Assembly (NCBI RefSeq): GCF_000949295.1 | Contig: NZ_JXYS01000074.1 | Span: 14 to 40,925 of the forward strand | Source: Acidithrix ferrooxidans | GTDB lineage: Bacteria; Actinomycetota; Acidimicrobiia; Acidimicrobiales; Acidimicrobiaceae | DNA length: 40,912 bases | Reading direction: 5' to 3' | Shown: in pieces, positions 19,371-23,642 of the stretch | Numbering within the stretch: the stretch's first letter is position 1 | Layout of the letters: every line of letters begins with the position of its first letter | Made by a program: the position numbers and the translations under genes | Notes under the pieces: model-generated | Told to the model about the DNA's origin: nothing | What the model saw: the letters and a program-made list of their open reading frames with translations, nothing else | Database searches by the model: none

Positions 19371-20048
19371 TTGTCGAAAGGAGCTCGCGCTGGCGCGCTA
19401 TTAGTATCATTTGCGGCACTGCTTGGATTAATTGTCTTTGCGGTCGCAGGATATCTTAGGTCGACACCGCCGACTGTTTCAGCAACACCCTCCTCTACTC
19501 CTGGCGTCGTTAACCTTGTTATGCAGACCGATGGTGCAGTGGGCGTAGGTCCTCATCCAAGTTGGGTGGGGTACTTTATCCAAGATGCCAACGGAGCTTG
19601 GCATCAGACCACTCTGATCCAGCTTCCTACACATAGCACTGTTCACGTAACGCTTTACGAATACGATTCAGGTGGAAACCTGAGAAATACCGTCTGGTCC
19701 AAAATACAGGGCACAGTCGGTAATATTGCGTATGTAAATGGAGTAGCGGAGAATATAGTAAATCCAAATTCCAATACGGGAAATGGAATAGCTCACACAT
19801 TTAATGTTCCAGGCCTTGGGATCAATGTCCCGATGTATGGCGTCAGCTCAACTGCAAAGAATTTCTGTAATGCAGGTCCTTGCAACTTGAGCGAGGCTCA
19901 TACTACTATTACCTTCCAATTCCACACCGGTGGCGTTGGTAGCTATAGATGGCAATGCTTTGTTCCATGTGGACTTGGTTATGTAGACGGCAATGGTGGC
20001 CCAATGCAAAACATAGGTTACATGGCCGGATTTCTGAAGGTGGTTTAG
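19371..20048 (+). CDS. Membrane-anchored cupredoxin-like protein, AcoP-like by context
   Basis: 225 residues: an N-terminal membrane helix (about 9-28) and an extracytoplasmic domain ending in a cupredoxin-type copper-loop region, GSYRWQCFVPCGLGY (Cys196, Cys200) and GGPMQNIGYMAGFLKV (Met212, Met218), with an upstream histidine in GIAHTFNV (His142). The CxxxCG spacing recalls the CuA loop of oxidase subunit II but the loop histidine is absent. In acidophilic iron oxidisers a cupredoxin gene (acoP) lies directly before coxB and its product partners the aa3 oxidase; gene order here is the same, so electron delivery to the oxidase is the likely role. Start TTG 19371 with GAAAGGGG upstream. Metal binding is inferred. 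Confidence 0.65.
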   Translation: MSKGARAGALLVSFAALLGLIVFAVAGYLRSTPPTVSATPSSTPGVVNLVMQTDGAVGVGPHPSWVGYFIQDANGAWHQTTLIQLPTHSTVHVTLYEYDSGGNLRNTVWSKIQGTVGNIAYVNGVAENIVNPNSNTGNGIAHTFNVPGLGINVPMYGVSSTAKNFCNAGPCNLSEAHTTITFQFHTGGVGSYRWQCFVPCGLGYVDGNGGPMQNIGYMAGFLKVV

Positions 20049-20051
20049 TCG

Positions 20052-20966
20052 ATGGCTAATTTCGTTTTAGACGAATCCCGCAGCGAAGAATCCACTAAGG
20101 GCCATCTGACTAAGATCCTGGTAATTTGGGCTATCACCTCGGTTATCGGCATGGCGTTGGTTTGGTTCGTATTAGGACCTCACCTCCCGCCTGGCACGAT
20201 GACCGACCAAGCCCAAGGCGCCCAGTTTGACATCAGGTTGGTGTCAACACTGGTAGTACCTGTGCTCTTTTTCGTCTGGCTCTTTTTTGGGTATTCGATT
20301 ATGAAATGGAGGGTGCGTCCGGGTGAAGACCCACTCGCTCCCGGCGCCAATATCAGCGGAAACTCTAAGGCTCAGGGCGCGTGGTATATAATCACCACCA
20401 CTTTGGTCTTGGGTTTGGCTGCTTTTGGTACTTACTTTTTGGTGGTTCCAGCCGGAGCTGGAGGAGCTGAAGGTTCGAGCCCAATTTGGAGGCCTGCAAC
20501 TAAGAATATATTGCAGGTTCAAGTCATTGCACAGCAATGGCGCTTTACTTACCGATGGCCCCAATTTGGTGGCATGGAGACCACTAGTCTTGAACTTCCA
20601 AACAATACAGAGATTCAGTTCAATGTTACAAGTTTGGACGTTATTCACGACTTTTGGGCCTATGGCCTAGGGGTTAAGGCTGATGCGAACCCTGACTACA
20701 ATAACATAGCTTACGCCAAGACTCAACAGACTGGAAAGTTTGTTGTTCGTTGCGACGAGCTATGTGGTATTTGGCACGGGGCTATGTATAACTACGGACA
20801 TGTGGTAAGTCAAGCACAATTTCAGACATGGGCCTCCAATATGGAGACCCAAAATGCTGCTTTGACGAAACTTCTACCTAAGTATTCATTGACCTATACG
20901 CCTTCTTACTCAGGTGCTGGTGGCGGTTATTACAATACTGCAACCGACCCCAATGCGAATCTTTAG
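20052..20966 (+). CDS. coxB: Cytochrome c oxidase subunit II (CuA subunit)
   Basis: Accepts electrons at the CuA centre on the outer face and passes them to haem a in subunit I. 304 residues: two membrane helices (about 25-45 and 75-95, then 113-133 giving a longer N-terminal membrane region), followed by the CuA domain. CuA ligands are all visible: His199 in DVIHDFWAYGLGVK, and CDELCGIWHGAM supplying Cys234, Cys238, His242 and Met245, with the acidic residue between the cysteines replaced in the usual way (Glu236). VRPGE and a Trp-rich QQWRFTYRWP strand fit electron entry. Starts 3 nt after the cupredoxin stop; no extra cytochrome c domain. Confidence 0.95.
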   Translation: MANFVLDESRSEESTKGHLTKILVIWAITSVIGMALVWFVLGPHLPPGTMTDQAQGAQFDIRLVSTLVVPVLFFVWLFFGYSIMKWRVRPGEDPLAPGANISGNSKAQGAWYIITTTLVLGLAAFGTYFLVVPAGAGGAEGSSPIWRPATKNILQVQVIAQQWRFTYRWPQFGGMETTSLELPNNTEIQFNVTSLDVIHDFWAYGLGVKADANPDYNNIAYAKTQQTGKFVVRCDELCGIWHGAMYNYGHVVSQAQFQTWASNMETQNAALTKLLPKYSLTYTPSYSGAGGGYYNTATDPNANL

Positions 20967-21051: not shown

Positions 21052-22998
21052 ATGGCAATTGACTTCTCGAAAGAGACCGAATCAGGTTCTTCGAGTGGCA
21101 CTCCAGGTACTTCAGGTAAGGGTATCTTTAGCCCGAGCATAATAACTGGAGCCGTCGCCGGTGGCATAGGGTATCTCTTTGGCCACTGGATGGGTAATGC
21201 CATCGCCGGCGGCTATCCACAAGTTATAGGTAGTGGTCAAAACGACGTTGCCATCTGTCTTGGTTATGCTTTTGCTGTCGTTGGATGGTTTGCTGGCCTT
21301 GGGGCTCTCAACTATCCAATCAAGAAGATGCTGGGTTACGAGCCCGACTTTAGCGAACCTGAACTAAAGCCTGGATGGACGAAGTATTTTCAATATACCC
21401 AAGACCATAAGATAGTTGGAATCCAATATCTCTTTGGTATGTTGGTCTACTTCTTCACGGCGGGCCTGTTGGCTCTAGCCATTCGAACAGAACTGTTGTC
21501 GCCTACCCACCATATATGGGGACCAAGCACCTACCTTGAAATCGTAGGTGAGCATGGAACCATGATGATGATGATGATGACTTCGGTGGTTCTTGGACCG
21601 TTTGGTAACTTTATGATTCCTTTGATGATTGGCTCCAAGAAGGTGGCATTTCCTCGTTTAGAGGCAGCCTCGTTCTGGTTTACGCCGATCTCATATGTAA
21701 TATTGTTGTCCGCATTGTGGCAGGGCGGCTTCCAATCTGGTTGGACGTCGTATGCTCCGCTCTCGATCCAACAAGGTGTGGGCCAGGATGCATATATCTT
21801 TGGATTCGGCCTGCAGGGCCTTTCAATGGTCTGTGCTTCGACGAACATTGTGGCTACGATTATCAACTATCGAGCACCAGGTATGACTTGGAATCGCTTG
21901 AATATCATGGGTTGGTCGATGCTGTCCCTTGGTTTCACAATGATTCTCTCAGTTCCAGTGCTTATTGATGGTTTGTATGTTTTGACACTTGATCGAACTG
22001 CCCAAACTTCGATGCTCTATGGTCCCCACGGAGGTTCATCCTTCCTCTGGGAGAACTTGTTCTGGTTCTTTGGCCATCCGGAGGTCTATCTGTTGGCGAT
22101 TCCAGGCTTTGGAATGGTCGCAGAGATTATCCCGGTCTTCGCGAGAAAGCCGATCTTTGGTTACAAGACATCGGCCGCTGGTATGATTGGTCTGGCAGTT
22201 CTTAGCTTCTTTGTATGGCAGCACCATCTCTTCCAGAGCGGTATGAACCCGGATATGCGTCCATTGTTCATGTTGACAACAGAGCTGATCTCAATTCCTA
22301 CAGGCTTTATTTACTTGGTTGGAATGGGAACTCTTTGGAAGGCTCGAATCCGCCTTACTGTGCCGATGCTCTTTATGTTGGGTGTTTACTTCAACTTCCT
22401 CTTCGGCGGACTGACTGGAGTTTACGTCTCTGACGTACCAATCAACGTAACGGTGCACGGTAGCTTCTTTGTTATGGCTCACTTCCACTACACCATCATG
22501 GGTGGGGTAATCTTCGCATTCTTTGGTGCGATCTATTACTACACTCCTTTGGTTACTGGATTCCAGCTCAACCAGAAGTGGGGTAAGATTCATTTCTGGT
22601 CGATGATGATCTCATTCAACTCGACCTTCTTGCCTTTGTTTGCGGTCGGACTCTTGGGTCAGCCGCGCCGAGTATTCGAGTATGCTCAGCGTCTTCAGAC
22701 CTTGAATGATTGGGTTTCGATCTCGAGCTATGTGCTTGGGCTCTCTTTGACCTTCTTTGTCGTAACCTTCCTTTGGCAGCTTGTGGTTACTCGTACTCCT
22801 GCAGTTCGAAACCCATGGGGATCGCGCAGTCTTGAATGGCATGTGGACTCTTATCCACCGCCTCAACATAACTTCAAGACGGTACCTGTTGTAATGGCTG
22901 GACCCTATGAGTATGCTGATCTGGATGCATTGCCAATGGCTGATATAGTTGTTGAGAATGCCGATAAGGATGTAGTTCGCACGGGAGGCAAAGCATGA
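21052..22998 (+). CDS. coxA: Cytochrome c oxidase subunit I, with altered proton-channel residues
   Basis: Haem-copper oxidase catalytic subunit. 648 residues with an N-terminal extension of two extra hydrophobic segments before the core. Redox-centre ligands are intact: His168 in GEHGT (haem a), His342-Pro-Glu-Val-Tyr346 (CuB and the cross-linked tyrosine), His391 and His392 in VWQHHLF, His477 and His479 in AHFHYT. Channel markers differ from A-type oxidases: IGSKKVAFPRLE has Lys197 where Paracoccus has Asp124 and Glu204 for Asn131, and IPTGFIY has Ile420 for Lys354. Glu344 (Glu278) is kept. Six methionines (171-176, an ATG repeat) follow the haem ligand. GGAGG precedes ATG 21052. The stop overlaps coxC. 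Confidence 0.96.
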   Translation: MAIDFSKETESGSSSGTPGTSGKGIFSPSIITGAVAGGIGYLFGHWMGNAIAGGYPQVIGSGQNDVAICLGYAFAVVGWFAGLGALNYPIKKMLGYEPDFSEPELKPGWTKYFQYTQDHKIVGIQYLFGMLVYFFTAGLLALAIRTELLSPTHHIWGPSTYLEIVGEHGTMMMMMMTSVVLGPFGNFMIPLMIGSKKVAFPRLEAASFWFTPISYVILLSALWQGGFQSGWTSYAPLSIQQGVGQDAYIFGFGLQGLSMVCASTNIVATIINYRAPGMTWNRLNIMGWSMLSLGFTMILSVPVLIDGLYVLTLDRTAQTSMLYGPHGGSSFLWENLFWFFGHPEVYLLAIPGFGMVAEIIPVFARKPIFGYKTSAAGMIGLAVLSFFVWQHHLFQSGMNPDMRPLFMLTTELISIPTGFIYLVGMGTLWKARIRLTVPMLFMLGVYFNFLFGGLTGVYVSDVPINVTVHGSFFVMAHFHYTIMGGVIFAFFGAIYYYTPLVTGFQLNQKWGKIHFWSMMISFNSTFLPLFAVGLLGQPRRVFEYAQRLQTLNDWVSISSYVLGLSLTFFVVTFLWQLVVTRTPAVRNPWGSRSLEWHVDSYPPPQHNFKTVPVVMAGPYEYADLDALPMADIVVENADKDVVRTGGKA

Positions 22999-23642
22999 GT
23001 GAAATTACCGAAGATCGTCCCGTAGTGGACGAGGTGCAACTCTATCATGAGGCTGCGCTAGGTTCTCACTGGTGGGGCGCGAGGATAGCTATTGGCTTGG
23101 TGATGACCCTTTTTGGTGGAATTGCCTTTGCTTATTTCTATCTACGTTCTCTGAACTCGCATGGCCTTTGGGATCCACATGGTCAGACTGCTTCGACCCT
23201 TATGGGCTCTCTTATTCTGACCTTGGTTCTTCTGAGCGCTATCTTAAATGCATATGGCAACTTTCGCCTAAAGAAGGGCTCGACAATTGACTGGCAGGTA
23301 GCCAACATTACGGCTCTTCTGGCTGGGTTGTTTGCGGCTGGTTTCCAGATTTGGGAGCTGAGTCGGTTGAACTTCTTTCCAGGTGCTTTTGGATACGCTG
23401 GGGTCTATGTTGCATTTGCTCCTGTCTATTCCGGCGTTATTATCCTGTCAATGTATTGGCTAGAGACCTTGATTGCTCGTTCGTTACGCAATGCTCGCGC
23501 ACTTGCTAGCGATGGGGGAGTGGGGCTCTCGAGCTCGATGATGGCTGAGAACTTTAGATCTAATCTTGAGGGGTTTAGCTATTACTGGGCTTTCATGGCA
23601 ATCGTTTCAGTGGTATTTTTTGTCCTCTTTTACGTTCTCTAA
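22995..23642 (+). CDS. coxC: Cytochrome c oxidase subunit III
   Basis: 215 residues with five membrane helices, the short form of subunit III found in bacterial oxidases. GSHWWGARIAIGLVMTLFGGIAFAYFYLRS is the first-helix pattern, and later helices follow at about 70-90, 100-120, 135-155 and 190-212. It has no redox centre; it stabilises subunit I and its proton uptake. The ATGA overlap with the coxA stop implies coupling. Followed after 55 nt by the small coxD-like gene. Confidence 0.9.
   Translation: MSEITEDRPVVDEVQLYHEAALGSHWWGARIAIGLVMTLFGGIAFAYFYLRSLNSHGLWDPHGQTASTLMGSLILTLVLLSAILNAYGNFRLKKGSTIDWQVANITALLAGLFAAGFQIWELSRLNFFPGAFGYAGVYVAFAPVYSGVIILSMYWLETLIARSLRNARALASDGGVGLSSSMMAENFRSNLEGFSYYWAFMAIVSVVFFVLFYVL

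Follow-up and report, generated by a model that had tools for sequence, protein, structure and literature searches.

Proton-path residues of an A-type haem-copper oxidase from the iron oxidiser Acidithrix ferrooxidans: a putative re-registered D path

Introduction

Do the terminal oxidases of acidophilic iron oxidisers pump protons? To our knowledge, this energetic question is open. A locus in Acidithrix ferrooxidans raises this question for an oxidase in which the residues that mark both of the classical proton channels are replaced: by which route do protons reach its active site, and are any of them pumped? What one acid does within the D path is a question central to the mechanism of oxidases, and it has hitherto been addressed with mutants. 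We examined the locus in a stretch of 40,912 nucleotides, here called the window, from A. ferrooxidans Py-F3, a ferrous iron oxidiser whose source is a stream of pH 2.5 and whose genome is a 4.02 Mb draft in 183 contigs (PMC4417699). An earlier note on this DNA had described a subunit I without the D and K marker residues, and had argued that the enzyme must use another route or pump differently.

Results

The oxidase operon and the class of its subunit I

The operon contains, in this order, the genes for a small copper-protein candidate, a CuA-containing subunit II, subunit I and subunit III. Upstream of it are genes for UbiA and a thioredoxin-fold protein, both of which recur in the relatives that were fetched with long flanks. 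The features of the operon are as follows.

19371..20048, + strand: small candidate copper protein with one His, two Cys and two Met conserved; immediately precedes subunit II in those family loci that extend to it
20052..20966, + strand: subunit II with a CuA site; columns of Cys234, Cys238, His199, His242 and Met245 conserved in 38/38
21052..22998, + strand: subunit I (COX1, A-type fold, 648 amino acids; Pfam COX1 E 2.1e-119; AlphaFold2 model)
residues 30-52 and 65-83 of subunit I: two extra N-terminal helices in the AlphaFold2 model
22995..23642, + strand: divergent subunit III; weak NCBIfam CtaE match, E 3e-4, below the cut-off; same place in the family operons

The small protein had no match in Pfam or NCBIfam. 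Its residues H142, C196, C200, M212 and M218 were conserved in all 66 homologues of a separate alignment, five of which came from outside the oxidase family described below, and it may be a copper protein that donates electrons in iron oxidation.

The AlphaFold2 model of subunit I, built from 50 alignment rows, had a pLDDT of 88.6 and a pTM of 0.89, and superimposed on a Rhodobacter aa3 chain with a Z-score of 52.3 and 1.1 A over 497 residues. The structural neighbours among the matches listed by Foldseek and VIA-align were A-type oxidases. The sequence search gave the same picture, with an E-value of ~4e-114 to an A-type chain and ~1e-6 to ba3 chains, and oxidases of the B and C types were matched only at ~1e-6 to 1e-7. 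The haem and CuB ligands and the helix VI tyrosine of the A type, for which the cross-link is predicted, were also present. Conversely, the alternative K path of the B type, in which Thr, Ser and Tyr act together with the subunit I tyrosine, was absent, these sites being Ile420, Thr417 and Ala357 in the window. Subunit I thus appears from its sequence to belong to a haem-copper oxidase that does not fit cleanly into the A1 type and is not of the B type either, because it combines an A-type fold with incomplete sets of channel residues.

The two extra N-terminal transmembrane helices in the model are the defining feature of the 2TM COX1 clade, a basal COX1 group that is described as including iron oxidisers (Degli Esposti et al. 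2021, PMC8239418), and the iron-oxidising host is a second shared trait. It was also noted that the extra N-terminal part contains the conserved residues His45 (34/37) and Asn64 (36/37), and that a run of six Met residues adjoins the haem ligand His168 (HGTMMMMMMTS, residues 168-178, 21553-21585), which is found in the close relatives except L028.

The family and its distribution

For the comparisons we used a family of 66 rows, which form one clade and were at least 45% identical to subunit I in the window. These rows correspond to 60 distinct cores, since some genomes were present twice via two collections. Another 85 outside rows were at most 41% identical, of which 67 contain the K-path lysine (Lys354 in Paracoccus numbering) and 18 do not. 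Second copies of the same locus, rows shorter than 480 amino acids and L063, which is broken by N, were left out of the counts; the readable half of L063 contains GARRVAYPRIE and has no K-path Lys. In one scan of genome contigs the best 80 matches were kept, and the comparison set contained no oxidases of At. ferrooxidans, Sulfobacillus, Ferroplasma or Sulfolobales.

In a midpoint-rooted FastTree phylogeny, the family formed a clade with a support of 1.00 that was nested within a K-less clade of 80 rows, also with a support of 1.00. Within the order, family COX1 genes were identified in 41 of 397 sampled genomes and 24 of 203 genera (E up to 1e-170), and 7 of the 396 genomes in a sample of the phylum contained one (E up to 1e-150). 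No close relative was found among plasmid records, of which 922 had a match, all below 60% identity.

Rows of at least 60% identity over most of the protein came from 27 genomes, including that of the window. A second, less similar COX1 was present in 26 of them, and all 21 that were read among these 26 were canonical, with Asp124, Asn131, Glu278 and Lys354. Four genomes (G016, G022, G027 and G034; one genus, same family) had a single COX1 match of ~40% each, and the sole match in G016 (L051) was canonical.

Substitutions at the channel markers

The residues at the marker positions are listed below with their equivalents in Paracoccus (Pd) and Rhodobacter sphaeroides (Rs).

21640..21642, + strand: Lys197 at the D-path entry (Pd Asp124, Rs Asp132); family Arg 49, Lys 16, Gly 1 of 66; outside Asp 85/85
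21661..21663, + strand: Glu204, acid at the asparagine gate (Pd Asn131, Rs Asn139); family Glu 63, Gln 3 of 66
21844..21846, + strand: Asn265 (Pd Asn199, Rs Asn207); kept in the window, Asp in three relatives with Gln204
22081..22083, + strand: Glu344 at the end of the D path (Pd Glu278, Rs Glu286); 66/66 in the family
22309..22311, + strand: Ile420 replacing the K-path Lys (Pd Lys354, Rs Lys362); family Ile 46, Leu 14, Thr 4, Val 2 of 66

The alignment is anchored by GSKKVAFPRLE against GAPDxAFPRLN and by IPTGFI against VPTGIK, and this register was supported by mycobacterial chains, Rhodobacter numbering and the alignments. The replacement of Paracoccus Asp124, Asn131 and Lys354 by Lys197, Glu204 and Ile420 had been proposed in the earlier note, and both the residue numbers and the register proved right. 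All three markers are substituted, and Lys354 is lost in 66/66 family rows. The catalytic residues are kept, as the note had also stated: the six His ligand columns (168, 342, 391, 392, 477 and 479 of subunit I in the window), as well as Glu344 and Tyr346 (Pd Tyr280), are each conserved in 66/66 rows.

Misalignment was ruled out, since the AFPR and PTG motifs fix the register, and so was an assembly error, since the same change was found in 66 rows from many genomes. The substitutions are not a matter of chance, because Asp124 and Asn131 were present in 85/85 rows outside the family, both with and without Lys354, and because the second COX1 of the window's own genome (L001) is canonical. Asn199 was likewise present in all 85 outside rows. 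A further difference was noted at the Rs Asp412 position, which we take to be the Mg site, where the window has Gly470 (22459-22461) and Gly was found in 66/66 family rows.

An acid within the D path

The D-channel set of the A1 type comprises Asp124, Asn199, Asn113, Asn131, Tyr35, Ser134, Ser193 and Glu278 (Sousa et al. 2011, PMC3084760). The window keeps five of the eight, namely Tyr35, Asn113, Ser134, Asn199 and Glu278 (Tyr126, Asn186, Ser207, Asn265 and Glu344, respectively), and has lost Asp124, Asn131 and Ser193. Within the family, Tyr126 was retained in 65/66 rows (with one gap), Asn186 in 61/66, Ser207 in 54/66, Asn265 in 63/66 with Asp in the other 3, and Glu344 in 66/66. The Ser193 position is Met259 in the window, and Met in 59/66 family rows.

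Across columns 124, 113, 131 and 199, exactly one acid was found in 66/66 family rows, whereas an acid inside the path was found in 0/85 outside rows. The displaced acid is Glu at the Asn131 position in 63 rows and Asp at the Asn199 position in the three rows with Gln204 (L030, L161 and L162). Few evolutionary events lie behind the two placements, because the branch with Gln204 and Asp265 consists of three rows from one genus. The subunit I proteins on this branch are 842 residues long and possibly fused to subunit III, and no subunit III gene was found adjoining L030.

An acid at Rs position 139 or 207, as in the decoupled variants of Rhodobacter, is thus present in 66/66 rows, with the qualification that the residue at 139 is Glu rather than Asp. 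In the Rhodobacter Asn139Asp mutant, pumping is uncoupled, activity is slightly increased and a pKa is raised from 9.4 to about 11, and pumping is likewise uncoupled in Asn207Asp (PMC6934443). A review describes normal channels as having ionisable groups at the entry and at the end, and none within (PMC8239185), a pattern from which the family departs, as judged from its sequences.

The results point to a D path that has been re-registered rather than abandoned, its acid having moved from the mouth to the gate, because one acid is displaced into the asparagine-gate region in 66/66 rows and five of the eight listed residues are kept. On the same evidence, a loss of the whole D path was rejected. 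Acids at neighbouring channel sites, the finding that the earlier note had itself set against its claim of a non-D route, were present in the gate region of every family row, and this claim is not supported.

Loss of the K path in both subunits

The K-channel set of Lys354, Thr351, Ser291 and Tyr280 was incomplete in the window, which keeps Thr351 and Tyr280 and has lost Lys354 and Ser291. The Ser291 position is Ala357 and the Rs Ser365 position is Val423, both of them non-polar. Two features bear on the path.

20373-20375, + strand: Gln108 of subunit II at the K-path entry Glu (Pd Glu78, Rs Glu101); family column Gln 32/38
22282..22293, + strand: Glu411 to Ser414 (ELIS) in helix VIII of subunit I; both residues 66/66 in the family

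The subunit II alignment contained 38 family rows (37 distinct) and did not extend to 28 that were found later, and the canonical subunit II of L001 was left out. The entry column contained Gln in 32 rows, Glu in 3, Ser in 1 and Thr in 1, and was unreadable in 1, which means that the entry Glu was lost in 34 of the 37 readable rows. Outside the family it was kept in 58/58 rows with Lys354 and in 1/16 rows without it (L088), the alignment of L037, L038 and L039 being weak at this column. The pattern indicates that, at the level of sequence, the K path is dismantled as a unit in both subunits. Under one hypothesis, the K channel has been lost seven times in family A (Degli Esposti et al. 2021, PMC8239418).

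In helix VIII, Glu411 was present in 14/18 and Ser414 in 15/18 of the other K-less rows, as compared with 0/67 and 3/67 of the K-containing rows.

Discussion

The route and use of the protons

Our preferred reading, which we hold tentatively and with confidence just short of even, is that the oxidase works in the iron oxidation of acidophilic Acidimicrobiia, pumps no protons and is supplied by a single re-registered D path. This path would carry all four of the chemical protons used per O2 out of the cytoplasm, from Glu204 to Glu344 and on to the haem-copper site, and the buried acid would decouple the pump, by analogy with Asn139Asp and Asn207Asp in Rhodobacter. Energy would then be conserved solely by electrons from the outside meeting protons from the inside. 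From the sequence we infer a single cytoplasmic D path for all of the chemical protons. The suggested absence of pumping is less certain, because Branden reportedly described in 2006 a Rhodobacter D132N/N139D double mutant in which the acid was moved from 132 to 139 and pumping was restored. The role in iron oxidation is suggested by the physiology of the host and the gene neighbourhood.

An energy sum bears on the pumping step. It uses textbook potentials and 15 combinations of conditions that we chose, with assumed values of 0.65-0.77 V for the Fe couple, an inside pH of 6-6.5, an outside pH of 1.5-2.5 and a potential of 0 to +50 mV inside. Under these 15 combinations, the drive per electron would pay for 0.24 to 0.96 pumped H+, and never for 1. 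By our own estimate, an extra pumped proton per electron would therefore be unaffordable on iron at pH ~2. No measured H+/e- ratio for any enzyme of the clade was found in the literature searched.

Several observations count against the preferred reading. Its combination of a Lys or Arg mouth with a Glu gate has no tested counterpart that we could find, and the positive charge at the mouth could slow proton uptake. The upper D path may be drier because Ser193 is replaced by Met in most of the family, Asn186 is replaced in a few of the 66 rows (by Gly in four, by Gln in one), and the subunit II Glu is still present in three. The recoupling mentioned above would favour a pumping enzyme, and in the mammalian enzyme the equivalent mutants leave pumping unaffected (PMC6934443). 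An alternative, which the reported recoupling supports, is that the re-registered D path still pumps, with Glu204 replacing Asp124 as the proton collector and coupling being kept. The presence of one acid in the path of every family row would also suit this alternative. We nevertheless regard it as unlikely, in that the energy of Fe(II) fell short of 1 H+/e- in all of the assumed conditions, which would be compatible with fractional pumping, and in that single gate acids uncouple the Rhodobacter enzyme (PMC6934443).

More improbable in our view is a substitute K path, which would lead from the cytoplasm via Glu411, Ser414 and polar neighbours in helix VIII and leave the D path with little weight. 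The conservation of both residues in the family and the distribution of Glu411 among K-less and K-containing rows speak for such a path, as does the alignment of Ser414 to Rs Ala356, at a corner of the K-channel volume as it is outlined in PMC10341450. However, non-polar residues line the lower K path of the window's enzyme (Ile420, Val423 and Ala357), there is no subunit II Glu, and the conservation of the D-path acid in 66/66 rows argues against a D path of little weight. A wholly different route, the stronger form of what the earlier note proposed, for example from the acidic outside via Glu411, Gln390 and Asp461 with a turnover that is non-electrogenic, seems very improbable. Gln390 and Asp461 are both conserved in 66/66 family rows, Gln390 was found in 0/85 outside rows, and with Gly at the Rs Asp412 position throughout the family, the protein has changed in its outer half. 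On the other hand, such a route would squander the one step that conserves energy, and neither a conserved gate acid nor Glu278 would be needed for it. There is at most a slender chance that the chemical protons come from the acidic outside via Glu411, Gln390, Asp461 and the altered Rs Asp412 site and that the iron electrons are burnt without charge movement, the enzyme acting as an electron sink or an oxygen scrubber.

The loss of two classical channel markers could also be taken as the mark of a degenerate or repurposed gene without oxidase function, which we find hardly credible. The ligands and the operon are kept, there is no internal stop in any listed family match, and the differences from L004 over 642 codons were distributed as 317 at third, 91 at first and 47 at second positions. 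A pseudogene was ruled out by the retained ligands and this excess at third positions, and the enzyme looks functional from its sequence. The overall interpretation in the earlier note is thus upheld as far as the missing markers and the functional enzyme are concerned, and the enzyme may well pump differently, as the note had suggested; its inference of a route other than the D path is the part that did not stand.

Relation to known oxidases

The family shares its fold (Z about 50 to 52), its catalytic ligands and Glu278 with the A1-type aa3 oxidases of Rhodobacter sphaeroides and Paracoccus, and it shares an acid at the same D-path sites with the Rhodobacter mutants Asn139Asp and Asn207Asp. 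It differs from aa3 and its mutants in the Lys or Arg at the mouth, in the absence of a K path in both subunits and in the two extra N-terminal helices. Unlike in the decoupled mutants, the change is natural and fixed in a clade, which may thereby be the natural counterpart of the laboratory changes that stop proton pumping. The classical D-path markers are also absent from B-type oxidases (PMC3084760), but the Thr, Ser and Tyr path of that type was not seen in subunit I of the window, and the sequence is far closer to the A type. In the survey as cited from Sousa et al., the channel residues were absent in only 4 of 1216 sequences, all of which grouped with the B type (PMC3084760). Variants of the K and D channels have been mapped on archaeal COX1 (PMC8239418). 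We found no description of the change from Asp to Lys or Arg together with that from Asn to Glu in the literature searched.

The family breaks the residue rule by which haem-copper oxidases are sorted into types. Evolution has here fixed an acid at two key sites and removed the K path, while a canonical oxidase that the cell has retained provides a control, and the culturable organisms Acidithrix, Acidimicrobium and Ferrimicrobium are offered for measurements of coupling.

Other K-less oxidases

In the 18 K-less rows that lie outside the family, Asp124 and Asn131 are still present, unlike in the family itself. Nine sequences (L031, L032, L064-L068, L072 and L097) are A2-like oxidases with HPAVY and no Glu278, in which Lys354 is absent, Asp124 is kept and Glu411 and Ser414 are present. 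A separate group (L037, L038 and L039) has Leu or Gln at the Lys354 position and PSG replacing PTG, and is without Glu411; it represents another kind of K-path loss within the same order. Finally, L033, L034, L035 and L036 are further oxidases from the genomes of relatives, of which three belong to the same taxonomic family as the window. They have lost Lys354 but not Asp124, and at each of these four loci the oxidase gene is adjoined by a relative of the small copper-protein candidate.
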